From IMG/VR virus record IMGVR_UViG_3300017758_000012, positions 1-53,324 of that record: a stretch of DNA of 53,324 nucleotides, one strand, 5' to 3'. A model generated the notes under the pieces. The model searched no databases and was not told the origin of the DNA. It saw only the letters and a program-made list of their open reading frames with translations. Source of the stretch: a virus. Shown one piece after another: positions 136 through 41,144 of the stretch. Within the stretch, counting starts at the first letter, position 1. Each line of letters opens with the position of its first letter. The position numbers and the translations under genes were made by a program.

Positions 136-477
136 TTAAAAGTAAAATTCTCTATTTCTATCTAACCAAAATTCAAATTTCTTATTACTTGAGATATGTT
201 CTAAACCATCAGCTTCATAGAAATCTGTAATTAATTCACCTACATCATACTTTGATAACTCTGCACCATAATACTTATTAATTTTTTCTATGTTAGGACT
301 TAAAAAATCCATAGCAAATTCTTCTAAAAAATCTTCATCATTACCATAATCATCATAAAATCTATCATATGAATCTTTAAATTCATCTTGATCAACAGTA
401 AGATAATCAATAAATTTTATTTCTTCTTTTAATAGTTTACCTTCAGCTAAATATTTTTTTAAATTAAAATTATCCAT
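136..477 (-). CDS. Small acidic protein with N-terminal LAEG cassette
   Basis: A 113-residue acidic protein starting MDNFNLKKYLAEGKLLKEE. The first 15 residues are shared with the neighbours on both sides, and the rest (rich in D, E, F and Y) is not. This pattern, a constant N-terminus on different bodies, resembles T4 internal head proteins, which carry a short N-terminal targeting peptide cleaved after Glu. The body has no domain I recognise. It is the second of three consecutive cassette genes, separated by about 10-15 nt. A role as an internal head protein is inference from the cassette only. Confidence 0.8.
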   Translation of the reverse strand: MDNFNLKKYLAEGKLLKEEIKFIDYLTVDQDEFKDSYDRFYDDYGNDEDFLEEFAMDFLSPNIEKINKYYGAELSKYDVGELITDFYEADGLEHISSNKKFEFWLDRNREFYF

Positions 478-488: not shown

Positions 489-1232
489 TTATCTAAATTC
501 ATATTTTACCCGTCCTGATGTAAAAGCATCCCCATATCTTAAGGTCCCTATATATTTGACCTTATCATCATCATCTAGATTTAAACTCTGAAGCTTCCGT
601 TGTTGTTCAGGTGTTAATTCACTATCATAATCAACTGCTGCAAGCTTTTGATCATCAGTTATATCCCTCCATTTCTTACCAAACACTTTCATTGCTATTC
701 TATTATATTCATCAGGATCAGTATAATTAGGGATACGAGGTACAAAATCTAAATCAGTAAAATCTTCAACATGACTAACATTCCCACCTACTATTTTTCC
801 TTTTTCAATTACTATTTGAGTATCTGATCTAAAACCTCTAGATGAATCATCAGCTCTTAATTTTATTTCCCCAAACATTTCAGCCACTGATTCATTACTA
901 TCTTTTAATTCACCATAATACTCTTCATCAACTTTATCTACAAATTCTTCTTTAGTGTTAGCAGCTATAAAATCGAGTTCTTTATTATCGGCAAAAACAA
1001 ATAAATAAGGTGAATTAGGTAATTTTGTTAAATTTTGTTCATTTTTTATCCAATTTAAAGCTTTTGATTTGTTACCATCATAATCATCATCAGCTATTTC
1101 ACCAACGTAAGTATTAAATTCCTTTTGGGTCCAAACACTAAGATCTTTTTTATCAGAAGAAGCATAAACATATCCCGTGTTTTCAAATAATCTACCTTCA
1201 GCTAAATATTTTTTTAAATCGAAATTATCCAT
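489..1232 (-). CDS. Protein with N-terminal LAEG cassette, unknown body
   Basis: A 247-residue acidic protein starting MDNFDLKKYLAEGRLFENT. The cassette is shared with the genes at 1-123 and 136-477; the body (about residues 20-247) is unrelated to theirs and not recognised. It is soluble-looking, rich in Asp and Glu, with no membrane segment. A TPEQQRKLQSL stretch near residue 210 looks helical. The gene lies 12 nt downstream of the gene at 1245-1706. A capsid-delivered protein is the simplest reading of the N-terminus, but the activity is unknown. Confidence 0.8.
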   Translation of the reverse strand: MDNFDLKKYLAEGRLFENTGYVYASSDKKDLSVWTQKEFNTYVGEIADDDYDGNKSKALNWIKNEQNLTKLPNSPYLFVFADNKELDFIAANTKEEFVDKVDEEYYGELKDSNESVAEMFGEIKLRADDSSRGFRSDTQIVIEKGKIVGGNVSHVEDFTDLDFVPRIPNYTDPDEYNRIAMKVFGKKWRDITDDQKLAAVDYDSELTPEQQRKLQSLNLDDDDKVKYIGTLRYGDAFTSGRVKYEFR

Positions 1233-1710: not shown

Positions 1711-3086
1711 TTATGCTATAAGATCATTCATAGTTGATTGTATAGTACTTGGAGCGTCATTTAAGTTACCTACAAATCCTGGTTTTCTAATTGATACTAA
1801 TGTTATATCTCCATCACTATCTACTGTATATGATCCTCCATAATAAGCTTGATCATTTACATCTATATCAAAAGAACCTTCTTCTAATCCTCTTGATACC
1901 TTTATATCATCTTCTGGTTGTTCTAGTTTGATTGCTGCTACGACTTTTCTTGCAGCTTTTTCAGTGTCTTCTATTGTTGCGGGACCACTTGCTTCTTTAA
2001 GCTTTTTTTTTTACCTACTCCAAATTCTTTCTTAAAATAGCCTTTAGGTAAACCTTCATCTAATTTTCTATTTGGGTCTAATGCTTTTAATGCTTTTAAT
2101 CTATCATTATCATCAAGAATTCCTGCATCAATTAATTTAGTAACATGCCATAAATTTATATCAGCAGTTCCCATTTTTGATAAATCAGATAATTTTTTAG
2201 TACTAATACTTTTGTTAACTTTTGATGCAACATTTTTTAATGCACCTTCTATACCTTTAAGACTATCAGAAGGTGATGTTGCTTCTTCTAAACTTTCACC
2301 AAATGCTGCTCTAATTGAACCACATACTCTAGCGGCTCCCTTTTTACCGTATTTACTTTCATTGTCATCAAGACATTTATCAAATGGATATGATTTCTCA
2401 TTTATAGATCTCATTTGCTTAATAGTTTCTTTAATGTCTTTTAATTTAGCTAATTTTTTTAAAAAAGAAGTTTTAGTTTTAGGTGCCATTTTTTTAATCA
2501 TATCTATGACCCTTTTATCTTTATCTTCTTTTTCTTCTTCTTTTAAGGCATTACCAATTCCTACTTTTCTTCTCTTAATATTATCATCTGATGAGGTATC
2601 TATTTTATTACCCTTTCTATCATATCCACCTACTTCATTAATATCATAATCTTTCATTATAGCACCTAAATATAATCTAGCATCATCAGTAGACATTGCT
2701 CTAATTATTGCATCAACAACAGCTTCAGCACCCATCATTGCTACCATTCTGTCAGCCATTGCAAAAACTTCATCATCTAAAGTTTCTTTCATCATTGATT
2801 TTTCAATTGCTTTACCTCTAGTTTTTTCATAGTCGGATAATTTACCATCTTTGTTTAAATCTGCTTTTTTTGGGTTGGTCAGTGCATCTTTTATTAATTC
2901 ACTAAGTCTATTATCTTTCATAGATTCGGATTGTTTTTTTGCCATATTAGTTGCTCGTCCATACATTACAGCTTCAGCATCTTTACCATATTTGTCAACA
3001 AGAGAACGTTTGTTCTTCTTCATTTTCATTATGATTTCTTCCCTTTTATCGAGTTCTGCTTTAGTAAGCTTTTTTTCGTTGAGCAT
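1711..3086 (-). CDS. EF-hand-containing phage protein, -1 frameshift at an A10 run
   Basis: The first frame runs from 3086 to a stop at 1971 (371 residues). At 2003-2012 the coding strand has ten A residues (GGT AAA AAA AAA AGC). Shifting to the -1 frame there opens a further stretch of about 95 codons to a TAA at 1711 that has no start codon of its own and reads like normal coding sequence. The shifted product would be about 455 residues. The protein is lysine-rich and has an EF-hand-like calcium loop (DLNKDGKLSDYE, near residue 80) and a Cys-containing segment (FDKCLDDNESKYGKKGAARVC). Several L/I-x-E motifs recur along it. Either a sequencing indel in the homopolymer, or slippage/programmed frameshifting, explains the break. 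Neighbours suggest a virion-associated role. Confidence 0.7.
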
Positions 3087-3278: not shown

Positions 3279-3983
3279 TTAATTTGCTTTTACTACGTGT
3301 GCTCTAGTATAATATGTGATAGTATTTCCTATTTGATCTAATAGTTTTTCATCACCCATTTTTTCTGCTCTTTCTTGAGCTTTAGTTAAAAGACCTAATA
3401 TAGCTGATACATCAGATGATTCTCCAGGTACTGTAGATTTAACTTCAATATCTGATTCTGAAGATTCGTCATCAATATCAATATCTTTTTCAACATCAAT
3501 ATTAATATCTTCATTATCTTCGACATCTACTTCTTCAGCTTCATCTATATCATCCATTTCTTCTTCAACAGTAGATTTACCTACTTTATGAGGTTGTGGG
3601 TTAACAGGACCCCCATCAGCATCCATATTATATGAAGGTGAATTTTGTCTTCTAAATGAAACAGCATCTGCTTCATCTAAATCATCTTTCATTTCAGCTA
3701 AAATTCTTTCTTTAATTTGAGCTTTAAATTCTTTAACTGTAATTTTTGAAGATTTTTTTTCTCCTTCTTTAACGACATCTTTTTTAAAGTCTTTTTTTAG
3801 CTTAGCTAATTTCTTTTCATTATCTTCAATGTCTTTTTTAAGATCTTTTATATGGTCTCTATCATCACGGATAGCACCTTCCATACGTTTTTGTTCTTCC
3901 TCATTGCCTTTTTTACTGTCTTGTTTTTCAGTTAAAAGTGGGTTGTTTTTTAAGTAATTTCTGTAGTTAAATTCGTTTGCCAT
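3279..3983 (-). CDS. Acidic coiled-coil protein, possible scaffold or head-associated
   Basis: A 234-residue protein starting MANEFNYRNYLKNNPLLTEK, a diverged version of the N-terminal cassette seen at 1-1232 (F-x-x-x-x-Y-L then L-L-T-E). Residues about 25-75 are lysine/glutamate-rich and predicted coiled coil. Residues about 145-185 are an Asp/Val/Ile strip (EEVDVEDNEDINIDVEKDID) like the tail of the protein at 1245-1706. The last 45 residues form an ordinary helical domain. Charge and coiled coil recall prohead core or scaffold proteins, but identity is not established. An ATATTTATAA element lies 16 nt upstream of the start. Confidence 0.75.
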   Translation of the reverse strand: MANEFNYRNYLKNNPLLTEKQDSKKGNEEEQKRMEGAIRDDRDHIKDLKKDIEDNEKKLAKLKKDFKKDVVKEGEKKSSKITVKEFKAQIKERILAEMKDDLDEADAVSFRRQNSPSYNMDADGGPVNPQPHKVGKSTVEEEMDDIDEAEEVDVEDNEDINIDVEKDIDIDDESSESDIEVKSTVPGESSDVSAILGLLTKAQERAEKMGDEKLLDQIGNTITYYTRAHVVKAN

Positions 3984-4030: not shown

Positions 4031-5062
4031 TTATTTTTTAAGTGAGTTAAATATTTTTCCTTTTAATTCCATTAGATCTGGACCTGCTGGTTTATTTCTT
4101 GATTTTCCATCTGGTGTATAACCACAAGATCCTTCCTTTATATCATCCATCATTCTTTGTTTTAAAGCAGCCATAATAGCAAATATAGCATCTTGCTCTG
4201 AGTAGTCATATCTTTTAGCCATTGCTTTAATAAAACCATTTACCTTTCTAGATACTTCTGGATTGAGTGCTTCATTTAATGATTCATTCATATCATACTG
4301 GTTAATTTGTTTTTTAACTCTGTATAATTTATCTTCTAATTTATTTAGCATACTACCATATCTATTAGCTATTTCTCCTCCTTCTGGCTCTGCTTCTTGC
4401 TCCATGTCTCTGTATAATTGAGCAATTCTGTCTTCTAAATCTTTTTGTTCATCTCTTAAATACATAACATCTTCAAAATCTAATCCACCTCTAGATGGTT
4501 CTGGTTGTTTATCTTTTGCTATTTTTGCTGCTCTTGCTTTTACTAAAGCAGGATCATTAACATCTATTTCTTTTAAATTACCGGGTAAACCAAAATCTCC
4601 AAATTCATCACCTTTTATGTCTATAAAATCATCTGATACTACAAATAATTTTACTTTACCATTCTCTAAATCTGTAACTTCAATATCTTCTACATCATAT
4701 TTATTTTGAAGCATAGTGGCTATGTTGTTCATTATTAGTAGAGCTCTTTCTGAACTTAATCTTCTAATTTGACCTGTCATTGTTTCTTGACCAAGTGCCA
4801 TAGTAGCACCTCCAGAACCAATATCATAATCTATAAATACATTTAAGAAATTAGGATTATTTTTATCTTTTTTAGCTCTAGGTGAAGATACTCTTCTATA
4901 ATCTTCAATGCTTTTTTCATTTAAATAAGGTTGTTCACCATCTCCATCATATGCTGTAAAAGTAGAACTGCGCATAGCATCAGTTTCTTTTTGAGAATTA
5001 CTTTTAAATTCTCTAATGTATTGCTCTCTAAAATATTTAGTTAATGAAAAATCTTTTGCCAT
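4031..5062 (-). CDS. Virion-associated or internal head-like protein, unknown function
   Basis: A 343-residue protein starting [20 protein letters not shown], another diverged cassette (F-x-L-x-K-Y-F, ending R-E-F). Residues about 90-155 look like an alpha/beta domain ([20 protein letters not shown], then a strand-rich part). Residues about 200-255 are coiled coil. A linker [15 protein letters not shown] near residue 260 contains L-N-E-A, a possible prohead-protease site, and is followed by a small helical C-terminal domain ending near a single Cys ([15 protein letters not shown]). No known family is recognised. It has its own ATATTTATAA element, 18 nt upstream. Confidence 0.75.
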
Positions 5063-5117: not shown

Positions 5118-5693
5118 TTATTTTTTTAAGTTTTCTAAGTACTTTATAGTTTTTTCTAATTCTTTTATAACTCTTTTTTCATCATAACCCCCAACCCATT
5201 TTTCAACATCTCCTTGTTCTGTTATATAAGATTTATTAGATGTAGTTAATTGATCTTCAACAAAGTCCTTAAAATCTTTAATAAAAATGTCTAAATCTGA
5301 ATTATGTATATTTTTTTCGTACACTTCCCAAGCTCCTGCTCTTTTTAAATCTGTAGCAAATTTTAAAAAACAATCATAACATTTTTTATGAAATTTATAA
5401 TAACCAGAATCAAATTTATGTTTCATTTGTTTTTTACAATTAGGACAAAATAAAGGAATTTTTATTGATTTTTTTATTTCATCATATTTAGTAATATTTT
5501 GTTTGATACCTTCTTTAATGGTCCATTTTCGACCATTTTCTTCCCAAATATCACCTTCTTTATAAAATGTATCTTTTTTAGTATAACCTATTCCTTCAGT
5601 AGTTCTGTTCCCACTTTTTCCTTGTATTAAATTTCGGGCACGTTGAACATCCTTTTTTGAAAATTCTTTTCTTAAAACATTGTCTTGACTCAT
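5118..5693 (-). CDS. Zinc-ribbon phage protein
   Basis: A 191-residue basic protein. Four cysteines at residues 83, 86, 105 and 108 (CPNC and CYDC) form a typical zinc ribbon. The N-terminal 70 residues include a short beta segment (GDIWEENGRKWTIKEG). The C-terminal 40 residues are helical (EKRVIKELEKTIKYLENLKK). The start overlaps the stop of the upstream 836-residue gene by 4 nt (ATGA), indicating translational coupling. A nucleic-acid-binding or folding role is possible; the function is unknown. Confidence 0.75.
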   Translation of the reverse strand: MSQDNVLRKEFSKKDVQRARNLIQGKSGNRTTEGIGYTKKDTFYKEGDIWEENGRKWTIKEGIKQNITKYDEIKKSIKIPLFCPNCKKQMKHKFDSGYYKFHKKCYDCFLKFATDLKRAGAWEVYEKNIHNSDLDIFIKDFKDFVEDQLTTSNKSYITEQGDVEKWVGGYDEKRVIKELEKTIKYLENLKK

Positions 5694-8200
5694 AAGCCTA
5701 ATTCTTTTAATTTATTTATTGTTGAAGCTGTGTCAGTATGTAATACACCAATTCCACCAGCTTTTATCCATTGATCTATATTTGACTCTCTATCATCAAT
5801 TAATATACTATTAGGATCTGCATAGTTTTGTTTATTAGCAGCTCTAGCTAATATTAGTTTAGTTGAAGGTAAATTTCTTTGTCTCCAAATTCTTTTTCCC
5901 ATTTTCGAATGATCAGCTCTTGAGGGAGATGATAATAAAGTTGGATTATAAGACTTAATATAATCCCATAATTGTTTACCATCAGACATCCAATCCATTC
6001 CTACCCAAAATCTTACTCCTGTACCATCAACTAATTCCCAAAATTTATCTTTACCAAACTTTTGTTCATATTCCGTTGGAGGTATTCCATTTGAAAATCT
6101 TTTAAACCTTTTATTAAAATCAACTAATACTCCATCCATATCTGAGTATATTGTGTATTCTTTGTTTATATTTTCTTTAATATTTTTCTTTTTGTTTTTT
6201 AAACGTTGAGTTTTTCTTTTAGATGCTTCTTTACGTTGTTTAATATAATCAAATGCAGATTTAAGTTTCTTTTTTTTCTTAGGATCCTTAGTTCTACCTA
6301 ATGCTGCTCTAACTCTTTGATGTATTAAATTAATAATTTGAGATTGTCTAGCGTGTGATTTATTTTTAAAAGAAGATTTATTTAAAGTATCAACTACATC
6401 TTGTCTTGTTGAAAATTTTATTCCTACAGTATCCTTTGGATTTTCATCTGTGTATAATCTACGACTTGATCCTTTAGGTTTTTTACCTGTTCCTTTTTTA
6501 GGATCAGCTTCATTTAATGGTTTACCTATTTCATAAGGTATACCTTTTTCTTTTAAAGCATTTTCATATTCTTCATTTGATTCAGGTAATACTACTTTAA
6601 TTATATATTTAGATAAATTTGTAACATTTGTATCAATTACCTCTTCCATTTCATCATATTGACTTATCTCTTCATAATCGGGATTATCTGAAGTATCTTT
6701 ATATGGTCTAATTTTATATTTAGTACGTAATTTATCTTTATCAAGAATAAAATAAGGTTGATCTCCTAACCATTCTGTGGCGTATGAATCTAAACTACGA
6801 GTTAAACTTATAGGACCCTTTAACATATCATCATCTAAAACGTCTAATAAGTATTGGGTAAAATGGTATAAAACACCAAATTGTGGACCTTCATTAACAT
6901 TAGTTGTTGTTTTTAATGTTTTAGCTAATTGTAATGCTTTATAATATTTTTGATTTTTATCTCCTAACTGAGCACCTTTTTTATCAGGATCTTTATCCAT
7001 TTTCTTTAAACGAGCAATTTCTTTATTAATTAGGGATAATGGAATTTTTTTATCTTTAGGAATACCTAATCTTTTTCTAACAGTACCTTGTTTCAAACTA
7101 CCTGCTTTTTTTCCTTTAGCAGCCATTTTTTCATAAGTATCTCCTTCTTTTAATTCTTCCTCTAATCCTCGAGCTAATTCAAGAGCATAAGCATTTAAAC
7201 CAAATGGATCTTTATTTTTCTTTTCATTTATACTATCAGTCCAATTTCTAAATGTCATTGTACCTACTAAATTAGCTTCTTGTTCAATTTTATCTAAATT
7301 AACATCTTCAGTAGTATCAGTTGTTTGAACATCACCTAATCTATCTTCTAAAAATTGAGTATGATGAACCATTTCATGGGAAAATGATCTAACTATATCT
7401 TTGGGATGTCTACCTTCTGTATACAAAACTATAGTTTGAGTATTAGGATCATAATAAGCTGTTTTTCCAAAAAAATCTTTTGCATTTTCAGAATCACCAT
7501 CTACAAATTCTACTTTAGGTAAAGGTTCTATATTTCTACCTTTTTCTATCATATAATCCGTTAAATCTTGAATCATTTGTTTATAATCTATATCTTTAGA
7601 ATATGTAGCATTTTCATTTAATACAGGTGAAACTATGTCAAATACCATACTTTTATCTTCTTTTGATAAAATATCTGGTAGAAATGGGGTAAAATATAAT
7701 TTTCCCTTTTTAGCTGCTTCTCTAGCATTTCTACCTCTCATACCTTCATCTTGTGTGGTAACAACCTTTAAATCTAAATTATTATATTTTTCAGGATTTT
7801 TCTTTAATGCTTTTGCTCTATCTATTATATCTTTTTCATCATCATCAGCTCCTTCTCTTTTACCTATTATCCAATAAATAATATCTTGAGGATTATTTTT
7901 AGCAAAGCTATAAATATCACCAATAGGCATTTTTGAAGGTTGTATTTTAACTTTTGGTGGTAAATAATTTTGGTAGATTTCCCAAATTAATATAGCTTCT
8001 GCTTGAGATATACCATTCCTTTCACCACTACCTACTAATATTATTAATTCATCAATTTCAGGATATTGTTTTAAAGCTTCATCTACTACTTCAAAATGTC
8101 CTCCTATAGGAGGTTTAAAACCCCCACCATATAAAGCAACTATTTTATTTTTATTTTCAGGCAATAATCCTTCTAATAATGATTTTGTTAATTTATTCAT
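5690..8200 (-). CDS. Multidomain polyvalent protein: nucleotidyltransferase, metallopeptidase, HAD
   Basis: An 836-residue mosaic. Residues 20-190 are a cytidylyltransferase-like fold (YGGGFKPPIGGH, the HxGH-type motif, H35). Residues 196-330 hold a zinc metallopeptidase motif (H275-E-M-V-H279, with Glu about residue 306-308 as a possible third ligand). Residues 440-545 begin LYHFT and contain ISLTR, possibly an ADP-ribosyltransferase-like fold (weak). Residues 578-665 match my memory of DUF5872, also known in giant viruses (DENPKDTVGIKFST, KSHARQSQIINLIHQR). Residues 680-836 are a HAD phosphatase (D687-x-D689) like 5'(3')-deoxyribonucleotidases. The start MNKLTKSLLEGLL has an L-L-E-G site, and linkers contain LNEN (194-197), VNEG (435-438) and LNEA (562-565). 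This is the architecture of phage polyvalent proteins carried in the capsid; delivery and processing are inferred. Confidence 0.82.
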   Translation of the reverse strand: MNKLTKSLLEGLLPENKNKIVALYGGGFKPPIGGHFEVVDEALKQYPEIDELIILVGSGERNGISQAEAILIWEIYQNYLPPKVKIQPSKMPIGDIYSFAKNNPQDIIYWIIGKREGADDDEKDIIDRAKALKKNPEKYNNLDLKVVTTQDEGMRGRNAREAAKKGKLYFTPFLPDILSKEDKSMVFDIVSPVLNENATYSKDIDYKQMIQDLTDYMIEKGRNIEPLPKVEFVDGDSENAKDFFGKTAYYDPNTQTIVLYTEGRHPKDIVRSFSHEMVHHTQFLEDRLGDVQTTDTTEDVNLDKIEQEANLVGTMTFRNWTDSINEKKNKDPFGLNAYALELARGLEEELKEGDTYEKMAAKGKKAGSLKQGTVRKRLGIPKDKKIPLSLINKEIARLKKMDKDPDKKGAQLGDKNQKYYKALQLAKTLKTTTNVNEGPQFGVLYHFTQYLLDVLDDDMLKGPISLTRSLDSYATEWLGDQPYFILDKDKLRTKYKIRPYKDTSDNPDYEEISQYDEMEEVIDTNVTNLSKYIIKVVLPESNEEYENALKEKGIPYEIGKPLNEADPKKGTGKKPKGSSRRLYTDENPKDTVGIKFSTRQDVVDTLNKSSFKNKSHARQSQIINLIHQRVRAALGRTKDPKKKKKLKSAFDYIKQRKEASKRKTQRLKNKKKNIKENINKEYTIYSDMDGVLVDFNKRFKRFSNGIPPTEYEQKFGKDKFWELVDGTGVRFWVGMDWMSDGKQLWDYIKSYNPTLLSSPSRADHSKMGKRIWRQRNLPSTKLILARAANKQNYADPNSILIDDRESNIDQWIKAGGIGVLHTDTASTINKLKELGL

Positions 8201-8994
8201 GAACGTAAAAATTGTTCTATTCTTGTTTGTGCTTCTTCTTTAGACATAGTATATTCAATTACATCATATATAAAATCATCATCTAACATAGCTTGAATTT
8301 CTTCTTTATCTTTAGCTTTTCTTTCATCAGATTGTTTTTGTTGAGCAGGTGTTTTTGGTTTAGTATTTTTAGGAGAAAATGGTTTAAGATATTTATCTAT
8401 AATTTTATCTATATCTTGCATTCTATTATCTAATGTATTAGCTACAGCAACAAAATTATTACCGAATAAATTAGCATATTTAGGTAGATTATCTGTTACA
8501 CTTTTCCAAGTACGCATTACAATAGCAGGTGCTAGACTTCTATCTTTACCCCCTGATTTTGTATATCTATCTTGATTCTGACTTAATGAACGTTGTAAAT
8601 CAGTATAAACATAAAGCATAAACACATCATATCCTGCTTCTTTTAATTCATTTTTTAGTTTAACAGTATTATTAAATGAAGCCGCTGTACCATCTAATAT
8701 AAATGATTCTTTACCTTCAATAGTATCTTGTATTTCACCCTTAAATTCTTTATTAGCTTGAGCCATTGCTTTAGCTTGCTTACTTCTTTCTTCAGGTGTT
8801 GCATTTTTAAGATCTAAAGTAACATTAGCTTGTTTAAGTTTATTAATAAATGTATTATCTATATTTAATACTTTTAAACCACCTAAGTCTAAACCTTTTA
8901 ATATATATCCTTTACCTGCTCCAGGTGCACCTGCTAATATAATTGCTTTGGGCATTCCAATTGATTCTTTTAAAATTTGAACTAAGCTTATCAT
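8197..8994 (-). CDS. P-loop kinase (zeta-toxin/AAA_33-like)
   Basis: A 265-residue protein with a clear Walker A motif (AGAPGAGKG, residues 21-29) preceded by a hydrophobic strand (KAIIL), and a second strand (DVFMLYVYTD) with downstream arginines (QDRYTKSGGKDRSL) typical of the lid of small-molecule or zeta-toxin-type kinases. The N-terminus MISLVQILKESIG carries an L-K-E-S motif before the kinase core, similar to the putative prohead-cleaved leaders of neighbouring genes. The C-terminal 60 residues are charged and helical. It overlaps the start of the polyvalent protein by 4 nt. The substrate is unknown. Confidence 0.82.
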   Translation of the reverse strand: MISLVQILKESIGMPKAIILAGAPGAGKGYILKGLDLGGLKVLNIDNTFINKLKQANVTLDLKNATPEERSKQAKAMAQANKEFKGEIQDTIEGKESFILDGTAASFNNTVKLKNELKEAGYDVFMLYVYTDLQRSLSQNQDRYTKSGGKDRSLAPAIVMRTWKSVTDNLPKYANLFGNNFVAVANTLDNRMQDIDKIIDKYLKPFSPKNTKPKTPAQQKQSDERKAKDKEEIQAMLDDDFIYDVIEYTMSKEEAQTRIEQFLRS

Positions 8995-9003: not shown

Positions 9004-9013
9004 TTATAAATAT
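9004..9013 (-). promoter_or_regulatory. Putative late promoter element ATATTTATAA
   Basis: Coding-strand ATATTTATAA, 9 nt upstream of the kinase start at 8994 and touching the stop of the nuclease gene upstream. It would start a separate late transcript for the 0-9 kb cargo block. Confidence 0.45.
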
Positions 9014-9798
9014 TATAAATTTCTCTTAGCTGTAGTTTTAAATTCTGTAAATGTAGGAGAGTGTTTAGGAAATTCTAAATCAAATAATTTTTTAACGGTA
9101 TTAAAAATATCTAAATTTTCTTCTTGTGTTCTTTTTGATTCATGCATTTCCCATCCTTTACCTTTTATTTTTTTACCTGTTTTATCTTCTCCCCTAGATT
9201 TTGATTTTAACCATAATACTCCTACTCTATCTACATTTTTACCATAACATTCTTCATAACATTGAGCGTAGATAGCCCCTTGTAAATCATAAGTTATTTG
9301 TAGATTATTTGAGGTTTTAAAATCTATAATCCACATTTCAGTTTTACCATCAATTTCAATTTCACATACTAAATCACAAGTACCTGCTACTTTTATTTTA
9401 TCTGAAAATAAATGTACTTCTGCTTCAACTAATGTTGGATTATACTTTTCCCAAAAATCAACAAATTTTAAAAACATTTGCCAAACATCGGGATTACACA
9501 TAGGTATTCCATCATTTAAAAAATTTAATTCTTTACCATTAAGATAATCTTCAATCATTTCATGTACTTGAGTACCTTCTTCTGCTGCTTTTTTAACAAT
9601 CCAATCAGCACTAAAACCTACTTTTTTTAACCAATCTTGAAAATGTTTACCTTTTGGATAACAACTTAAAACATAAGTTATAGATGGATAGTATTTACCA
9701 TTTCTTCTATAATATCTAGCATCAGGCAAAGTTATTTGTTTAGAATCTTCACTTATTTCTAAAATTCTATTGTAAGATTTTTTTATATTTTTTTTCAT
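9013..9798 (-). CDS. RecB/Cas4-family PD-(D/E)xK nuclease
   Basis: A 261-residue protein with all hallmarks of the RecB-like exonuclease fold in order: G-T-x-x-H-E (H79), G-T-C-D-L-V (D142), I-I-D-F-K-T-S (D159 and K161) and the D-L-Q-G-A-I-Y-A-Q motif (Q173). These residues bind the metal and the DNA backbone in the family. It overlaps the stop of the primase gene by 4 nt, so a replication or recombination role is likely (processing DNA ends or removing primers). It is much shorter than RecB and lacks a helicase, as is normal for phage stand-alone versions. Confidence 0.88.
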   Translation of the reverse strand: MKKNIKKSYNRILEISEDSKQITLPDARYYRRNGKYYPSITYVLSCYPKGKHFQDWLKKVGFSADWIVKKAAEEGTQVHEMIEDYLNGKELNFLNDGIPMCNPDVWQMFLKFVDFWEKYNPTLVEAEVHLFSDKIKVAGTCDLVCEIEIDGKTEMWIIDFKTSNNLQITYDLQGAIYAQCYEECYGKNVDRVGVLWLKSKSRGEDKTGKKIKGKGWEMHESKRTQEENLDIFNTVKKLFDLEFPKHSPTFTEFKTTAKRNL

Positions 9799-10745: not shown

Positions 10746-11246
10746 TTACTTTATATCTCCAAAGTCACGTGAAAAAAATTTACCTAATATATTATCATTA
10801 ATATGAGCACTATGTTTATTTTCTAATACTTCATTTTTAAATAAATGTTTAGTTTCATAATATGTTAATAGTTTTTTAGAAGGAACAAATTCTAATATAC
10901 GTTTTTCCCAATTTTCACCTGCATTATCCTGCTGTGATAATGCGACTATTTCTTTTTGAGATCCAAAATAATCTTTCCAATCTGATTCTGTTATAGTTTT
11001 TTGCTTTAAAGGGGTGCGTCCTTTAAGACCTTGTTTAGATCTTTCTTCTTTTAAAGCTTGTAAAGCCTTTTTACCTAATTTTTTATTTCTCTCAAAATAT
11101 AAAACCTTTTTACCTATATATCTTGTATCTGTAGGTTTATGTTTAACTTCATATATAAATCCATAAGTTCCTTTAGGCATATCTTTTATTGATGTTATAA
11201 CCCTTCCCTGGTATATCCAGGTAGCGGTTGTTGGCATATTTGTCAT
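10746..11246 (-). CDS. GIY-YIG family endonuclease
   Basis: A 166-residue protein with the GIY-YIG pair GTYGFIYEV (residues 27-35) and RYIGKK (42-47), spaced as in the catalytic domain of this nuclease family. A lysine-rich segment follows (RNKKLGKKALQALKEE, 53-68). No separate DNA-recognition domain such as NUMOD is obvious. Related genes are common in T4-like phages, either as mobile (homing) nucleases or as host-DNA-degrading enzymes; which applies here cannot be told. It sits between structural genes and the primase, an odd position that fits a mobile gene. Confidence 0.75.
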   Translation of the reverse strand: MTNMPTTATWIYQGRVITSIKDMPKGTYGFIYEVKHKPTDTRYIGKKVLYFERNKKLGKKALQALKEERSKQGLKGRTPLKQKTITESDWKDYFGSQKEIVALSQQDNAGENWEKRILEFVPSKKLLTYYETKHLFKNEVLENKHSAHINDNILGKFFSRDFGDIK

Positions 11247-26835: not shown

Positions 26836-27242
26836 TATTGTATTGCTATATTTATTTCATCCTCTACTCCTATATTACTAATTATATAATTTATAAATAG
26901 ATTTATTGTATTTGTATCTGGTTGATTATCAAAATTTATATTTTTTATAGTTATCTCTGGAAATTGTAATGTTACGTTATCTTTAATTCTTGTTGTTATA
27001 GCACTATTAGTTCCATCATTAATTCCTTCCCCTATAAAATCCCTTAAATTTGCACCAAAAAGAGGTTGCATAACTCTTTCACCTTTGTTGGTTAATAACC
27101 AATTAACTAAATTAGTTCTTATTACTTCTTTAGTTGTGTAAGTTGGATTAAACACAGCTCTTCCTGATAGGGGTAAACTAAAGCCTAAGGCAGCACTACC
27201 ACTACTAACTGTTGGAAAAACATTACTTACAATTTGAGCCAT
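26835..27242 (-). CDS. gp25: Baseplate wedge protein gp25-like
   Basis: A 135-residue protein of the gp25/GPW family. It has the conserved core YTTKEVIRTNLVNWLLTNKG, then ERVMQPLFGANLRDFIGE, where the E-R-V-M-Q-P-x-F-G motif corresponds to the family 'EPR' region that initiates the tail sheath. The length is normal for the family. It shares single-base stop/start overlaps with both neighbours, so gp6, gp25 and the 117-residue protein upstream are likely co-translated. Confidence 0.95.
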   Translation of the reverse strand: MAQIVSNVFPTVSSGSAALGFSLPLSGRAVFNPTYTTKEVIRTNLVNWLLTNKGERVMQPLFGANLRDFIGEGINDGTNSAITTRIKDNVTLQFPEITIKNINFDNQPDTNTINLFINYIISNIGVEDEINIAIQ

Positions 27243-27595
27243 TATTTACTATTCATTAAATTCATTATTTGGTCCATACCCACATTACCTGCAGGAAGAG
27301 AACCATTAGCCATATCCATTCCTGGATTTGGTCTAAAAGTTTGTGCATCATTACTTGTAAAAGAATTTGCAGTTTCTCCTAAAATATTTTTATAAGCATC
27401 TCTTTTATCTTGAGCTGACATTACTGGAGTAGTTGGAGGAGTTTTTGGTGATGATTGAGTAAAAGATTCTACTATAGGAGTCTGTGATACTACCTTTGGG
27501 GATTTTACTGCCTCTAAGAGTATATCTTTTAATTCTTCTTGTATTACTTCTCTAACAGTTTCTTTAAGTACTTTTTTTAATTCTGTTAACTTCAT
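27242..27595 (-). CDS. Small baseplate-region protein with amphipathic N-terminus
   Basis: A 117-residue protein. The first 30 residues are a strong amphipathic helix (KLTELKKVLKETVREVIQEE), followed by a Pro/Ser/Thr-rich linker and a Met/Gly/Asn-rich tail (NPGMDMANGSLPAGNVGMDQ). It lies 1 nt upstream of gp25 and downstream of a 635-residue hub-region protein, with an ATATTTATAA element 11 nt upstream of its start. No family is recognised. The helix plus unstructured tail suggests an assembly or connector role. Confidence 0.7.
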   Translation of the reverse strand: MKLTELKKVLKETVREVIQEELKDILLEAVKSPKVVSQTPIVESFTQSSPKTPPTTPVMSAQDKRDAYKNILGETANSFTSNDAQTFRPNPGMDMANGSLPAGNVGMDQIMNLMNSK

Positions 27596-33840: not shown

Positions 33841-34068
33841 CCACCACCACCGGGCTTATACGACTTGCCCTGTTAAATGCCGTTTAGCTAGGGTACCTCT
33901 TAGGCAGCCATTGCTAGTTCAACTTGTTCGCCAGTTATGCGTATGATCTTCATTATATCCTTACTTTATGTCAAATACCTGTACATCCCCGTATTTTATT
34001 GTTTATATTTAGTGGAGATGGTGGGAATCGAACCCACGTCCAAAAAAGCAGCTAATATAACTATAAAC
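33841..34068 (-). ncRNA. ssrA: Circularly permuted tmRNA (two-piece SsrA)
   Basis: On the minus strand the tRNA-like 3' part comes first: TTATATTAGC, then a T arm with stem GTGGG/CCCAC and 7-nt loop TTCGATT, then CATCTCC and discriminator A (34013). After a 22-nt spacer (34012-33991) comes the normal 5' end, GGGGATG (from 33990), whose 7 bases pair with CATCTCC to make the acceptor stem. It is followed by a D-arm-like GGTATTTGACA. ATATAA after it pairs with TTATAT of the acceptor piece (helix P2). The reading frame GGC GAA CAA ... GCC TAA (33932-33900) encodes the tag GEQVELAMAA. GC-rich hairpin/pseudoknot sequence follows, then CCCTTTAGGG and T6. The CCA is not encoded. It would rescue stalled ribosomes and tag nascent proteins. 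The exact ends are uncertain. Confidence 0.92.
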
Positions 34069-34074
34069 GATCAA

Positions 34075-34992: not shown

Positions 34993-35790
34993 TTAAAATC
35001 CTAAATATTTATTTCTTATATAATCTAAATCCCATGAAGTATAAGAATTAAAATATTCTTTATTATTAAAGGGATATTTACAAGGAGATAATTCCCCCCA
35101 ATTTTTTCCCCATTTTTTAGTTAAATACTCATAATTTTTTTTATCAACCCTATCTAATTTTTCTTTTATTTGAGGTTCTTCCTTAGATGTCTGTTGACCA
35201 TTTTTTTCATAATTAATACAATCAGCTATTTCTTTTCCGTGTAAATAAGTATTATCTAATCCTCTACAAACTTTTGGGTCTAAATTTAAAATTCTCATTA
35301 TATAATCTGTATCTTCTCCATAAGCAGGATATAAATTTTCATCAAATAACCCTACAATTCTCACCCCCATTTCAGTTATAGCAAATAAATCATATGTACC
35401 TACATTATTTACACCAGCTCTAGGATGAATCATACTTATCTCCTTATCTTGAGCCATATCTGAAAATTCTTTTAACAAACCCGGTGAAAAAGCAACATCA
35501 TGGTTAGAAATTATCCAATAGGGCTCCATTAAAAATGATTTTATAATTAAATTCCAAGCTGCTGGGACTCCTAAATTGGTAGGTAAATGTGTAATGTGTA
35601 TATTTTTAATAAATTTGTTAGCTATATTTTTTAACTTATCTAATTCTTCATTAATTTCTCCCCTTCCGTTATTATTAATTATAAATAAATTATCTACAGG
35701 ATAATCAATTGATAACATTAACCTTTTTACCCAATGAACTCCATTTACTATTGGAACTCCAATAACAGGTATACTTTTCTTATCTTCCAT
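34993..35790 (-). CDS. Glycosyltransferase family 2-like
   Basis: A 265-residue GT-A-type glycosyltransferase. A Rossmann-like start (VIGVPIVNGVHWVKRLMLSI, VDNLFIINNNGRG) is followed by THLPTNLGVPAAWNLIIKS, a GT2 'N-x-G' motif, then WIISNHDVAFSPG, where H-D-V is at the metal-binding DxD position. GEDTDYIMR matches the later 'E-D' acceptor-side motif. It lies 5 nt downstream of a TPR-like gene, and probably acts with it and the beta-propeller protein. Donor and acceptor are unknown. Confidence 0.82.
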   Translation of the reverse strand: MEDKKSIPVIGVPIVNGVHWVKRLMLSIDYPVDNLFIINNNGRGEINEELDKLKNIANKFIKNIHITHLPTNLGVPAAWNLIIKSFLMEPYWIISNHDVAFSPGLLKEFSDMAQDKEISMIHPRAGVNNVGTYDLFAITEMGVRIVGLFDENLYPAYGEDTDYIMRILNLDPKVCRGLDNTYLHGKEIADCINYEKNGQQTSKEEPQIKEKLDRVDKKNYEYLTKKWGKNWGELSPCKYPFNNKEYFNSYTSWDLDYIRNKYLGF

Positions 35791-35795
35791 TTCTT

Positions 35796-36413
35796 TTATT
35801 TTTTAACTAAATGTGAAATCCCCACATTTTCAATGGTTTCTTTTATTAATGTTTTATACCTTTCATTTAAATTATTATTGGGATTATTTGCTAATTCTAA
35901 AAATAACTCCTTACTTTCTTGTGTTTTTCCTATATACCACCCTGCAATAGCCTTATAATATAAAAATGCAAAATACCCATCATACCTATTATAATACTCA
36001 AAATCTTTATTACTTAATATATTAGAAATTCCTATACAAGCATATGAATACATGGTTAAATATTTTTCTTCTGAAGAAGGAATTCTATCCCCACAAAATT
36101 CTAACCATAAACACATAGCATTATAAGCTTCAGGTCTATGTGGAGAATGTGATATTGCTTGAAGTATTTGTCCTCTTTCAAATACAGGTCTACCCCCTAC
36201 TTTAGCCATACAATCCCAAGAACATAATAAACTTTCGTAAACTAAATCATCATTTTTAGACAATTCAGCACTTCTTAAATAATAAGATATAGCTGAAGCA
36301 TATTGTTCTATATCAAAATAACTATTTGCTAATTCAAAATTACATCTATCTTTTCTAGGATTAAGGATATATTTATTTAATTTATTTTCTAATTTATAAT
36401 TTCTCATATTCAA
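35796..36413 (-). CDS. TPR-like protein in glycan cluster
   Basis: A 205-residue helical protein with repeat-like segments (FELANSYFDIEQYASAISYY, LRSAELSKNDDLVYESLLCS, YYKAIAGWYIGKTQESKELF) of the tetratricopeptide type. Similar TPR pieces often follow GT2 domains in glycosyltransferases, so it may be a partner or a split module of the neighbouring glycosyltransferase. It overlaps the stop of the 343-residue gene by 20 nt; a start at Met3 (36407) would reduce that to 14 nt. Confidence 0.7.
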   Translation of the reverse strand: MNMRNYKLENKLNKYILNPRKDRCNFELANSYFDIEQYASAISYYLRSAELSKNDDLVYESLLCSWDCMAKVGGRPVFERGQILQAISHSPHRPEAYNAMCLWLEFCGDRIPSSEEKYLTMYSYACIGISNILSNKDFEYYNRYDGYFAFLYYKAIAGWYIGKTQESKELFLELANNPNNNLNERYKTLIKETIENVGISHLVKK

Positions 36414-37425
36414 TTTTTTCTAATATTATTTTAGGCATTTTAAGTACATACGCAGCATTATCTTGAAAGCCAAAGGTAATTAATAAATCATCCCCAACTT
36501 CAGCTAACCCGCAATTAAATTCTATCATAGCATCCATAAATTTAAATTGTTTAGATATTTTAACTATATTCCAATCTTTATCATAAAAAACAAATCTATG
36601 ATAATAATGAGCATCTTTTTCATTTCCAACAGGATGCCATGGAAAAAAACATTCATGAGTAATACATAATCTATATTCCCCAAATGGTATTACTTGTGAC
36701 CCTCCTCTTAAATCACAACCTGATAATTTTTTAGCAATTTTTTCACTAGGATCTTTTTTTACAATTACTTCACAATTTTTATTTTTACAATCAACTTTAA
36801 CTAATTCTATGGGATCAGCATGTCTAATAAAATGATAGGGCATATCTAAAACAGGCATCCAATTTTTTTCAAGATATCCATCCTTTTCAGGAACTTCTAT
36901 TCTATCTCTTGTAACTTCAACAAATCCTTCATTACCTAATATAACTTCACACATTTCCATTCTTCCCGTTCCAATTTCATCAATATCTCTTCTTACACCA
37001 CAAGTGTATAATTTATTATTCCATCTAAATATTCTTACATCTTCTTGTCCTATAAAATCCCAAAGTGGAGGTTTATCATATTTAGTAGTATCAATTTTAC
37101 TTGATCTACTTATATTTAAATCATCGTCTAAATGACATAAATAATTAGTTGTTTCTAAAAATGCAAATTCTTCAGGATTCATGTATTGCATACACCCCCA
37201 CATTCCCCAATATTTTTGGTTAAATTCAACATGGTGCATAACATATCCTACATGCCTTATATTAACTAATAATCCTTCATTTTCATCATTATAAATAGTA
37301 GCATTACATAGTCCCGTTCCTCCTGTAAATTTACTTGGAATTATTAAAGGTTTTATACTACCCCCATGTTCTAAGGACAGTTTAACTAAATTATTTTCTT
37401 CTGGATATAAATTTTCCCAACTCAT
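36394..37425 (-). CDS. Beta-propeller protein, GH130/glycosidase-like
   Basis: A 343-residue protein made of repeated beta blades with the pattern of five-bladed GH43/GH130/GH32 propellers: GLCNATIYNDENEGLLVNIR, FIGQEDVRIFRWNNKLYTCG, and LRGGSQVIPFGEYRLCITHE in the last third. The acidic residues in D-V-R and the H-E in THECFF could line an active site, but I cannot assign the catalytic Asp. Clustered with a GT2 and a TPR protein, it probably acts on or binds a glycan, either as a phosphorylase/hydrolase or as a non-enzymatic domain. Confidence 0.6.
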   Translation of the reverse strand: MSWENLYPEENNLVKLSLEHGGSIKPLIIPSKFTGGTGLCNATIYNDENEGLLVNIRHVGYVMHHVEFNQKYWGMWGCMQYMNPEEFAFLETTNYLCHLDDDLNISRSSKIDTTKYDKPPLWDFIGQEDVRIFRWNNKLYTCGVRRDIDEIGTGRMEMCEVILGNEGFVEVTRDRIEVPEKDGYLEKNWMPVLDMPYHFIRHADPIELVKVDCKNKNCEVIVKKDPSEKIAKKLSGCDLRGGSQVIPFGEYRLCITHECFFPWHPVGNEKDAHYYHRFVFYDKDWNIVKISKQFKFMDAMIEFNCGLAEVGDDLLITFGFQDNAAYVLKMPKIILEKIEYEKL

Positions 37426-37487
37426 ATATTTGTTTTTTTATTTATTTTGCATTACTATGTGACATTCATATTATATATATTATACAA

Positions 37488-37522
37488 CGCATAAAAACCG
37501 CAAAAAAACGCGGTTATATGCG
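37488..37522 (-). terminator. Hairpin terminator after the DUF932 gene
   Basis: On the coding strand the sequence forms AACCGC-GTTTTTTT-GCGGTT followed by TTTA, inside a longer imperfect stem (GCGCATATAACCGC with GCGGTTTTTATGCG). It lies 15 nt downstream of the stop of the gene at 37537 and well upstream of the next start. This fits an intrinsic terminator isolating the DUF932 unit from the glycan cluster. Confidence 0.65.
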
Positions 37523-37536
37523 CATGTATTAATTTA

Positions 37537-38355
37537 TTAACAAGCAAATTCTAAAGCTTTTGCAAACATGTTTCTATTTAAATCAATATCTTGTTTGAAA
37601 TTCTTAATTATACGAGCTTGTCTTTGTTTTCCTGATTTAGTATTGTAATAAAAATTACCATTAATAATATTTTCTTGTACTCTATTAAATACTTCCCATA
37701 ATCCATTACCTCTATCTTCATTACGTTGAGATTCTAACACATCTTTAACTGCAACATCATTAAATGTATTATCTGTTCCTTTAACTCTAATATCAAGTAA
37801 TGATTTTGCTAATTCTAATACTTGCTCTCCTTCTAATTCAATAGATTTCATTTTATTCATAGATTCAACTGTTAATGGTAATTTTTCCACCATTTCTTTA
37901 ATCATTGATTGTAGATCCTCAAATGTGTAACCCATATGACGCATTTTTACATCTTCAAATTCTGTATCTGCAATAACTAAACCATTTTCACAAATCATTC
38001 TAAATAATCCTGCTGTAAATGTAAAAGCATTTTTACCATCATGAGAGTTTGTTAATAATATTTGTGGGAAAACAGTATCTCCATCTTCTCCATTAATAAC
38101 AATATCATTATTTCTAAATACTAGTAAGTGTTTTTGGAATCCTTTTGTTGATTTAGTTCTAGCTTTAACTTCTTTTGCATCAACAACTCCCCAACCTAAT
38201 TCTTCCATATCATTAATAACTTCTTCTGTTGGAATATGAGTATATTTATCTGATACCTCATTTGAAGGATTCATTGTAAATACTGAAGGAGCTACTTTAC
38301 TAATTTCTTCCTTACTCATAAATTTTGCTGATTGTAAATTTTCTATATTGATCAT
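37537..38355 (-). CDS. DUF932 phage/plasmid-like protein
   Basis: A 272-residue protein of the DUF932 (TIGR03299-type) family. The diagnostic middle is NSHDGKNAFTFTAGLFRMIC, then ENGLVIADTEFEDVKMRHMG, followed by a conserved helical segment (MIKEMVEKLP). Members are common in phages and plasmids and their function is not established. It has its own host-like promoter (38408-38438) and a terminator (37488-37522), so it forms a single-gene unit. The start is preceded by AAAAGTTATG, as in other accessory genes. Confidence 0.85.
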   Translation of the reverse strand: MINIENLQSAKFMSKEEISKVAPSVFTMNPSNEVSDKYTHIPTEEVINDMEELGWGVVDAKEVKARTKSTKGFQKHLLVFRNNDIVINGEDGDTVFPQILLTNSHDGKNAFTFTAGLFRMICENGLVIADTEFEDVKMRHMGYTFEDLQSMIKEMVEKLPLTVESMNKMKSIELEGEQVLELAKSLLDIRVKGTDNTFNDVAVKDVLESQRNEDRGNGLWEVFNRVQENIINGNFYYNTKSGKQRQARIIKNFKQDIDLNRNMFAKALEFAC

Positions 38356-38407
38356 AACTTTTATTTTTTTTAATTAGTTTTTATTCGTTTTGCATCTATT
38401 TATACCG

Positions 38408-38438
38408 TAAATATACGAAAGCTCTCTCGGGTATCCAA
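38408..38438 (-). promoter_or_regulatory. Bacteroidota-type promoter with conserved spacer (DUF932 gene)
   Basis: The coding strand has TTG (38438-38436), 20 nt, then TATATTTA (38415-38408), matching the Bacteroidota TTG / TAnnTTTG promoter. The spacer GATACCCGAGAGAGCTTTCG is nearly the same as in the promoters at 38751 and 52555. The half-sites GGAAGCT and AGCTTTC around the -33 box form an imperfect dyad, suggesting an operator. Confidence 0.7.
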
Positions 38439-38450
38439 GCTTCCTGCGCA

Positions 38451-38702
38451 TTACTTTATTATTATCATTGATTTAGGAACTACAAATGTTTGACCATCAA
38501 AATTAACCTTACATTTTTTATTATTAACTTTAATAATTTCACCAATCATTCCCATAACTTTTTTATGATCAACACCAACTTTCATTCCTACTCTAAATCC
38601 TGGTTGTTTTAATTGAATCATTTGTTCAACTAAACCTTTAAATTCATTTAATTCTTGTAATGATAATTTGTGTAAACCTTCTGTTGTTTTTGTAAAATTC
38701 AT
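38451..38702 (-). CDS. Small KOW/SH3-like protein
   Basis: An 83-residue protein from the start at 38702 (MNFTKTTEGLHKLSLQ). That start is preceded by AATAAAGGTTATG, the pattern used by several accessory genes; an in-frame ATG at 38738 lacks it. Residues about 37-83 read GFRVGMKVGVDHKKVMGMIG, then EIIKVNNKKCKVNFDGQTF, a KOW/SH3-like beta barrel as found in ribosomal or RNA-binding proteins. The N-terminal part is helical. It may bind nucleic acid. Confidence 0.75.
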   Translation of the reverse strand: MNFTKTTEGLHKLSLQELNEFKGLVEQMIQLKQPGFRVGMKVGVDHKKVMGMIGEIIKVNNKKCKVNFDGQTFVVPKSMIIIK

Positions 38703-38750
38703 AACCTTTATTTTTATTAGTATGTGTGCGTTTTGCACTCATTTATGACA

Positions 38751-38781
38751 TAAATATACGAAAGGTCTCTTGGGGAGCCAA
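38751..38781 (-). promoter_or_regulatory. Bacteroidota-type promoter with conserved spacer (KOW gene)
   Basis: Coding-strand TTG (38781-38779), 20 nt (GCTCCCCAAGAGACCTTTCG), TATATTTA (38758-38751). The spacer length is the same, and the GAGA and CCTTTCG blocks match those of the other two promoters. It lies about 50 nt upstream of the start at 38702. Confidence 0.7.
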
Positions 38782-38799
38782 ATATTTTCGCGGGAGTCT

Positions 38800-39360
38800 T
38801 TAATTATTTTCTCTTATTTTCACCGTAATATCATGGGGTGCAAATTCATTACCACCAAAATAGGGGTATAAGTAATATCTTTTAATTAACCCCCAATTCC
38901 CCTCAGGTCTCCTTCTAACCATCGTAGTATCACCCTCTACAGTAATAATATAATAAAAAGTTTTAATATCTATTGTAGCATTATAAGGTATGTTTGGTTC
39001 TATAGTTCTTATAGTAGCTGAACTATGGCTACCATCCTCATGTCTTAACCAACATAATTCTATTTCACCATTAATATATCTCCAACCTAATCTTATTGAA
39101 TATTTTTGATGTGTAACACCAAAATCGCTAAAGCCATAAATCTTATTTACATCATGTTGGTTCTCTGGTATTTCAGTAGTGTAAATTGCAGACTCATCTA
39201 ACATAAAGTCAAAGTTTATTCTTGAGTTTGTAGGGTGGTTAAAATATCTACCAGAACTATGTGTACCTTCAAGTATTACATAAGTTCTAAAACCAAAATC
39301 ATCAGTATCTTTTTTACATGAAAATAATATTAAACATAGTGTTAATACTAATCTAATCAT
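38800..39360 (-). CDS. Predicted outer-membrane or surface lipoprotein
   Basis: A 186-residue protein with a lipoprotein signal peptide: MIRLVLTLCLILFSC, with the lipobox L-F-S-C and the lipidated Cys at residue 15, followed by KKDTDDF. The C-K-K-D-T-D-D start resembles the lysine/acidic export signal that takes lipoproteins to the cell surface in some Bacteroidota, though it is not an exact match. The mature part is a beta-rich domain (TYVILEGTHSSGRYF, YYIITVEGDTTMVRRR). A surface lipoprotein made by a phage could block superinfection or change adsorption; this is inference. Confidence 0.8.
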   Translation of the reverse strand: MIRLVLTLCLILFSCKKDTDDFGFRTYVILEGTHSSGRYFNHPTNSRINFDFMLDESAIYTTEIPENQHDVNKIYGFSDFGVTHQKYSIRLGWRYINGEIELCWLRHEDGSHSSATIRTIEPNIPYNATIDIKTFYYIITVEGDTTMVRRRPEGNWGLIKRYYLYPYFGGNEFAPHDITVKIRENN

Positions 39361-39365
39361 TTATT

Positions 39366-39794
39366 TTAGGCATCATTTGATTCAATAACTAAAGAAATAC
39401 CCCCAGTTCCACTAACATTCAAAGTATTAGGTGGAATAACATTTAGAGGGGCTAATTGGAATGATGAAGTTACTGAGGAAATAACTACACTATTTATATA
39501 ATTTGAAGATACATACCCATTTAAATTAATTCCAGAACTAGTTATTAAAGAACCCGATAAAGATCCAGTAAATCCAAAACTTCCACTACCAAAACTACCA
39601 CTAAAACTACCACTAAAATTTCCATTACTATTTGGTTGTACCCCTATATTAAAATATGCAGAACCATTAGAAGCATTTGGGTGATATATAGTAAATAAAT
39701 AAGGACTTTGAGGTGAATTATTTTGTAATTGTGAACCTATTAAACTTCCGGGTCCATTTAGTTGTGTGGAAGAAAAGTTAAGAGTAAGTGGCAT
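39366..39794 (-). CDS. Gly/Ser-rich structural protein
   Basis: A 142-residue protein rich in Ser, Asn and Gly. Residues about 52-85 repeat G-S-F/L-x-G-S (GSFSGSFGSGSFGFTGSLSG). No membrane segment or signal peptide is present. Composition and the late element 12 nt upstream suggest a minor virion component such as a fibre or decoration protein. It lies 5 nt upstream of the lipoprotein gene, so the two may share a late transcript. Confidence 0.68.
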   Translation of the reverse strand: MPLTLNFSSTQLNGPGSLIGSQLQNNSPQSPYLFTIYHPNASNGSAYFNIGVQPNSNGNFSGSFSGSFGSGSFGFTGSLSGSLITSSGINLNGYVSSNYINSVVISSVTSSFQLAPLNVIPPNTLNVSGTGGISLVIESNDA

Positions 39795-39806
39795 AATGTA
39801 ATTTTA

Positions 39807-39816
39807 TTATAAATAT
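39807..39816 (-). promoter_or_regulatory. Putative late promoter element ATATTTATAA
   Basis: Coding-strand ATATTTATAA, 12 nt upstream of the start at 39794, just inside the edge of the gene-poor region. It is the first late-type element met when reading down from the accessory region. Confidence 0.5.
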
Positions 39817-41134: not shown

Positions 41135-41144
41135 ATCATTATCA

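Follow-up and report, generated by a model that had tools for sequence, protein, structure and literature searches.

The 53,324-nucleotide stretch of DNA analysed here (positions 1 to 53,324 of IMG/VR record IMGVR_UViG_3300017758_000012, hereafter the window) originates from a marine T4-like myovirus and carries, on the - strand, a gene for a P-loop kinase and a gene for an 836-residue protein, the open reading frames (ORFs) of which overlap by 4 nt at 8197-8200. The question raised by this locus is in what form the larger product would reach the host. A preliminary description, the coordinates, start sequences and catalytic residues of which are correct (H275/E276 in HEMVHH and D687/D689 in DMDGV), regarded both products as capsid-delivered enzymes and the larger one as a single injected mosaic. 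Capsid delivery is supported by comparison (leaders in the kinase and in standalone HAD and ADP-ribosyltransferase genes, the gp23 propeptide and gp21 of relatives, and a homologue of the first module in virions). The mosaic is also real, and sites missed earlier separate all of its domains (E196, E326, E352, E437, E564 and E676). A protease-cut polyprotein is therefore likelier than one multidomain injected protein, and the reading favoured here, with a probability of roughly 0.78, is that the 836-residue protein is a capsid-targeted polyprotein, which the prohead protease would cut into separate injected enzymes.

Relatives of the window genes were found in 76 loci by a scan of IMG/VR; among isolates, the cultured Flavobacterium phage immuto is the closest one to carry a related locus. 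In the sequences below, a slash marks a predicted cut.

Modules of the 836-residue protein and the kinase

The AlphaFold model of the 836-residue protein, built on a 31-sequence alignment, consists of three well-ordered units (approximately residues 20-192, 205-325 and 682-836) linked by low-confidence stretches. Six modules, A to F, are distinguished (Table 1). In a Foldseek comparison with the PDB, module A matches NadD and phosphopantetheine adenylyltransferases, in agreement with the nucleotidyltransferase proposed earlier. The motifs of module A read IGGH (PPIGGH) and RGRNAR (MRGRNAR) in the clade of the window and TxGH or HxGH and SGTxxR in other relatives (window 7668-8170, - strand). 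With these motifs partly lost in the clade of the window, the activity of this module is uncertain and may be weak, altered or lost.

The HAD assignment of module F likewise stands (phrog_2643, E = 1e-24), with D687 and D689 in a DxDG motif and HAD phosphatase folds among the PDB matches. In contrast, the DUF5872-like domain listed alongside them, which corresponds to module E, was not found in Pfam or NCBIfam. Module E is nevertheless conserved: 16 relatives, in which its contexts are shuffled, have copies 66-88% identical to that of the window, and for module C, seven relatives with differing contexts have copies that are 82-100% identical. For module B, the proposed metallopeptidase is borne out by the motif HExxH...E, which is invariant across relatives and in which E308 is a possible third ligand, whereas its profile support consists of Pfam matches (DUF6782/M91) that are all sub-threshold. 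PDB sequence searches gave no match for either the metallopeptidase or the kinase.

Module D, refolded alone on 20 sequences, yields a confident model with a predicted local distance difference test score (pLDDT) of 87. Among its PDB matches, DarT1/DarT2 and an effector of Chromobacterium that was crystallised with ubiquitin are the only meaningful ones (E 0.02-0.2); the DarT matches have probabilities of 0.97-0.98 but E-values of 0.02-0.03. Additionally, Tox-ART-HYD1 weakly matches module D of one relative (E = 9e-4), the motifs YHxT, SLTRS and EMEE are invariant, and a PDB sequence search with the module gave nothing convincing. The model thus agrees with the ADP-ribosyltransferase-like part suggested before, although the E-values are weak.

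The kinase matches the Zeta_toxin family (PF06414) at 58.7 bits against a cut-off of 22.3 and contains the Walker A motif GAPGAGKG. A NadR-type interpretation of the kinase and module A, as an NMNAT and P-loop kinase pair in NAD salvage, was considered and set aside as speculation; the kinase matches zeta-toxin/AAA_33.

The [LIV]-x-E motif at leaders and module seams

The kinase begins MISLVQILKE/SIGMPKAIILAGAPGAGKG and the 836-residue protein begins MNKLTKSLLE/GLLPEN. A site near one N-terminus, taken alone, is not striking, because 45% of the other ORFs of at least 150 residues in the related loci have one within residues 5-22. The conservation of the site is more informative. Among the kinases of related phages, 64 distinct leaders occur and [LIV]xE is present in 64/64, directly before the kinase domain, with the predicted cut exactly four residues ahead of the conserved PKA of the kinase core in 63/64. 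E is invariant at P1 and P3 is occupied by L, I or V, while P2 and P1' are variable. Unrelated leaders have been swapped onto the same kinase (MISLVQLLKE/A, MNDFDFKKYLAE/GRLLKE/A and MPKDFNVHEWNKKRYLGE/A), and the MNDFDFKKYLAE/G type also occurs on neighbouring genes of the window. The N-terminal (L/I)-x-E sites pointed out in the preliminary description are in this way supported, and the two neighbouring LAEG genes with which they were compared are real.

The same arrangement is found in genes that encode a single module. The leaders of standalone HAD genes (..LVDLLE/AYP or ..LLNE/GYP) and of standalone ADP-ribosyltransferase genes (MIKLIDLLNE/A or ..NLIIE/GPQFG) end exactly at the module start. 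Leaders are also present in seven of seven cyanophage homologues of module A, for example MKKFSAFLNE/A (S-SM1 GC190), VKSFGQFLTE/A and MRFLDFIKE/A. The polyprotein leader is present in the window and its close relatives, and in immuto the N-terminal sites of the leader type are concentrated in the head-gene region (approximately 102-129 kb).

Within the window protein, seams lie at approximately residues 196, 352, 437, 564 and 676, each bearing [LIV]-x-E, after which G, N, A, K or D usually comes; the further site at E326 is the insertion point for other modules in relatives. The module order is ABCDEF in the window and ABEC+F, AECBF, ACBE, AECBD or ADBF in relatives, in which modules are permuted, absent or encoded by genes of their own, or have foreign modules added to them (PF00127, DUF6267 and DUF6934). 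Wherever modules C, D and E were examined as internal copies, a site lies on their left side, and D is flanked by sites on both sides. All predicted sites fall in segments with pLDDT below 50, between or ahead of domains, except that for site 437 and module D, for which few sequences were available and the full-length run modelled poorly, the low pLDDT is no evidence. A first large alignment with module fragments misplaced fragments and was excluded.

Breakpoints were defined without reference to the motif, as the end of a local alignment at which both proteins continue. An unbiased scan of more than 600 residue patterns at these breakpoints gave [LIV].E as the most enriched. With the motif counted within 6 residues, 130/206 breakpoints are at [LIV].E, compared with a mean of 40 and a maximum of 58 in 1000 circular shifts that preserve the spacing of breakpoints within proteins. 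A kinase-recruited set from partly overlapping contigs gives 156/224 (null mean 44, maximum 70). The control pattern [LIV].D is not enriched, and [LIV].K is not enriched in the first set and only slightly in the kinase-recruited set.

Of the foreign modules, a plastocyanin/azurin-like copper-binding module (PF00127, E = 1.5e-14) lies between predicted cut sites in L005:6001-9216 and L013:4080-6896, and a DUF6267 module with a ligase-like KWDGAPA motif is the last cassette in L009:6001-9378, L031:1368-4808 and L107:3275-6457. The protein GC71 of cyanophage S-SM1, encoded beside the virion cytidylyltransferase, resembles the DUF6267 module protein.

Prohead protease, virion homologues and alternative explanations

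T4 gp21 cuts after E in motifs of this type, and Alt is cut at ITE-6 and LTE-619 (PMC5694885). A gp21 gene (PF03420) is present in 8/14 related records, including all four longer than 160 kb. In the gp23 of relatives, this motif recurs at four propeptide positions that are conserved (LLE/, GLLE/G, [IVL]LE/NQAKQ and [IL]V.E/; 10 records readable in frame), the last of which gives the presumed mature N-terminus. In the closest relative in which that region is available (G002), 25 kb of a single strand contain the genes for the kinase, the polyprotein, TerL, gp20, gp21, gp22 and gp23 as well as other leader-bearing genes, with the gp21 protease and the gp22 scaffold approximately 15-20 kb downstream, and gp22 carries many such sites. 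A 624-residue further candidate polyprotein (MCKCGCNSCETKSTALVLKE/S...) with approximately 20 predicted sites is encoded in the same relative upstream of the terminase gene (L191:552-2426).

Module A is homologous to the S-SM1 cytidylyltransferase GC190 (hhalign E = 9e-7), a cyanophage core protein found in purified virions of S-SM1 (PMC3037559). Virions of S-SCSM1 (PMC9602691) and S-CREM2 (PMC10665884) also yielded NMNAT-like or cytidylyltransferase proteins.

From these genes, the following course can be proposed. The polyprotein would be made late, together with the head proteins, and taken up into the prohead core with the aid of its N-terminal leader. A prohead protease of the T4 gp21 type would then cleave the [LIV]-x-E sites of the leader and of every inter-domain linker, in each case behind the E. 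Modules A to F would thereby be freed from one another and stay in the mature head with the packaged DNA, as a nucleotidyltransferase (A), a metallopeptidase (B), a DarT-like ADP-ribosyltransferase (D), a HAD nucleotidase (F) and the unnamed modules C and E. As a single-domain protein, the product of the kinase gene just upstream would be packaged likewise. The enzymes may pass into the host along with the DNA and become active when infection starts; their likely targets, a speculation from the domain types, would be NAD and nucleotide pools and host macromolecules. Packaging, cutting, injection and enzyme activities are thus predictions for the phage of the window.

The alternative that survives best, although improbable, is that the protein is packaged by its leader and trimmed once like T4 Alt and the internal proteins, and otherwise acts as one multidomain injected protein in which the linker motifs are flexible seams. 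The leader evidence is strong, as this explanation expects, and T4 internal proteins lose short terminal peptides only (PMC9958956). However, the linker motifs share the P3/P1 signature of the leaders and gp23 sites, the same motif is the top seam pattern, and sites recur beside modules C, D and E in all of their examined internal copies; Alt itself is also cut on its C-terminal side (PMC5694885). There is a slim chance that the protein is a polyvalent protein which is left whole or processed by its own embedded HExxH metallopeptidase, as in the model of Iyer et al. (2017), rather than by the prohead protease. Such peptidases have been proposed to release the domains of polyvalent proteins (PMC5512222), and the metallopeptidase module is present here with HExxH...E intact, but the same sites occur in the kinase and the standalone HAD and ADP-ribosyltransferase genes, all of which are without this module, in relatives such as L031, where module B was not found, and in gp22 and gp23, which gp21 cuts in T4. 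It is very improbable that the products are ordinary late intracellular fusion enzymes that are not packaged, with a seam motif arising from recombination between similar linkers: some polyproteins are without leaders and metabolic enzymes of the kind represented by the modules also work inside cells, but the shared element of three residues, with variable P2 and P1', is too short for homologous recombination, all 64 kinase leaders keep the site, the genes are located among late head genes, and a cyanophage homologue is found in virions (PMC3037559, PMC9602691).

Several observations weigh against a polyprotein cut by the prohead protease. Many polyproteins of distant relatives begin directly at module A, so the leader cannot be the sole targeting signal. 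Approximately one third of the breakpoints have no nearby site, and [LIV]xE also sits inside folded domains (e.g., E41, E74 and E285), so exposure must decide cutting. In nine window proteins pooled, [LIV]xE is mildly enriched (53 versus 41 expected, z 2.1) and the control [LIV]xD equally so (z 2.6), and [LIV]NE alone is clear (9 versus 2.5 expected); because such bulk counts are uninformative, the argument is built on breakpoints, leaders and homologues. Tail proteins do not serve as a clean control, since one conserved junction of one tail family bears the motif. The window, with its 53 kb, is a fragment that does not include the gp21 or gp23 region, the authors of the cyanophage proteomics warn of co-purification (PMC10665884), and no virion proteomics for the phage group of the window was found in the literature.

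Beyond this locus, it is reasonably probable that tailed phages use a true polyprotein strategy, in which a late gene would be a series of exchangeable enzyme cassettes with prohead-protease sites at their borders, to be freed by the capsid protease after packaging. Through in-frame recombination at the seams, a phage could swap, add and reorder the enzymes that it injects, among them copper-binding plastocyanin-like domains, peptidases and ADP-ribosyltransferases. No description of prohead-protease-cut polyproteins yielding separate enzymes was found in the literature, in which subscription journals were poorly covered. If the strategy is real, a leader and [LIV]xE seams would provide a sequence rule for identifying the injected proteome of many marine T4-like phages, "hypothetical" mosaic genes would be explained as strings of cassettes, and the question of what T4-like phages inject would turn into a set of enzymes open to testing. 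Inhibition of host restriction is known for T4 internal proteins (PMC12373910), which makes the cassettes candidate counter-defence factors.

Surrounding features and comparison with known systems

Table 1. Positions of the genes, modules and predicted cut sites in the window.
Feature	Position	Strand	Basis
Zeta-toxin/AAA_33-type P-loop kinase gene, 265 residues, leader MISLVQILKE/S	8197..8994	-	PF06414, Walker A, leader site
Polyprotein gene, 836 residues	5690..8200	-	ORF and relatives with permuted modules
N-terminal leader MNKLTKSLLE/, predicted capsid-targeting propeptide, cut after E10	8171..8200	-	variants MNQLTKFLVDGILNE/ and others
Module A, NadD/NMNAT-like nucleotidyltransferase, residues 11-196	7613..8170	-	PDB folds 8aih, 5deo, 5o0a
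Module B, putative HExxH metallopeptidase (H275, E276, H279; E308), residues 197-352	7145..7612	-	invariant residues, weak DUF6782/M91 matches
Module C, conserved, no named family, residues 353-437	6890..7144	-	relatives
Module D, DarT-like ADP-ribosyltransferase, residues 438-564	6509..6889	-	model, weak profile match, standalone genes
Module E, conserved basic domain (DUF5872-like in the preliminary description), residues 565-676	6173..6508	-	relatives
Module F, HAD 5'(3')-deoxyribonucleotidase (D687, D689), residues 677-836	5693..6172	-	phrog_2643, HAD folds
Predicted cut site SPVLNE/NATYSK (E196)	7613..7621	-	module breakpoint; pLDDT<50 segment 193-203
Predicted cut site TDSINE/KKNKDP (E326), end of peptidase fold	7223..7231	-	pLDDT<50 segment 326-331
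Predicted cut site EELKE/GDTYEK (E352)	7145..7153	-	module breakpoint; pLDDT<50 segment 334-371
Predicted cut site TTNVNE/GPQFGV (E437)	6890..6898	-	module breakpoint; pLDDT<50 segment 429-481
Predicted cut site GKPLNE/ADPKKG (E564)	6509..6517	-	module breakpoint; pLDDT<50 segment 560-595
Predicted cut site KKNIKE/NINKEY (E676)	6173..6181	-	module breakpoint; pLDDT<50 segment 671-680
Neighbour with leader MDNFNLKKYLAE/GKLLKE/	136..477	-	same leader type fused to kinase in other phages
Neighbour with leader MDNFDLKKYLAE/G	489..1232	-	ORF start
Neighbour of 371 residues, many internal sites (SINE/K, SLEE/A, KLDE/G)	1971..3086	-	family also recombines at sites
Acidic neighbour of 234 residues, leader MANEFNYRNYLKNNPLLTE/K	3279..3983	-	ORF start
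Neighbour of 343 residues, leader with site and internal sites (SLNE/A, DIKE/G)	4031..5062	-	

Upstream of the kinase, an exonuclease (window 9013-9798, - strand) starts with a possible leader, SYNRILE/ISE/D, the immuto counterpart of which is MIQKGQNVLSE/H; this nuclease may therefore be packaged as well. A 117-residue protein of the baseplate cluster (27242-27595, - strand) starts MKLTELKKVLKETVREVIQEELKDILLE, contains repeated LxE and has a counterpart in immuto. The PHROGs label NAD synthetase for 10746-11246 (- strand) is probably wrong, because Pfam gives a SegE-type GIY-YIG endonuclease (E = 1.5e-20). The window also contains a permuted tmRNA gene at 33900-34072 (- strand; Rfam RF04321, 67.5 bits against a cutoff of 47), with the tag GEQVELAMAA given by ARAGORN, and, in the non-structural part (34993-50527, - strand), glycosyltransferases (PF00535 and PF04724) and a CMP-sugar cytidylyltransferase (PF02348). 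PADLOC gave no matches.

The ejection proteins of phiKZ-like giant phages (SPN3US; PMC5694885, PMC10052503) resemble the present case in that many head proteins are matured by a prohead protease after x-x-E, with multiple propeptide cuts. In the available portions of those reports, however, cleavage removes propeptides, and the separation of several enzyme domains is not described. Polyvalent proteins (Iyer et al. 2017, PMC5512222), the class named in the preliminary description, are likewise multidomain mosaics with ADP-ribosyltransferase and metallopeptidase domains and predicted co-injection with DNA. Their 2-15 diverse domains, including effector-type enzymes, have a parallel in the six modules here, but Pfam gave no match at E<=1 in the 836-residue protein to any domain named for that class (DarA-N, ArdC-N, DdrB-ParB etc.), and release is by an embedded peptidase in that model, whereas the capsid protease is predicted to act here. 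The cyanophage cytidylyltransferase/NMNAT (T4-GC190) shares the homologous nucleotidyltransferase module and the leader MKKFSAFLNE/A but, unlike the six-module chain, consists of a single enzyme domain with C-terminal segments.

As proposed, the system would amount to T4-type internal proteins organised as a viral polyprotein. The T4 internal head proteins (IPI-III and Alt) are similar in their N-terminal leader ending in hydrophobic-x-E, in the position of their genes with or near late head genes, and in a prohead protease of the same family, which is known here from relatives. Alt is additionally an ADP-ribosyltransferase cut at the two sites given above (PMC5694885). The [LIF]-x-E leader and the substrate-site features of T4-type internal proteins are both found here, as judged from the genes. 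The T4 proteins are, however, single proteins trimmed at their ends, whereas the chains of the window type contain up to six recombining modules with a predicted site at every junction.

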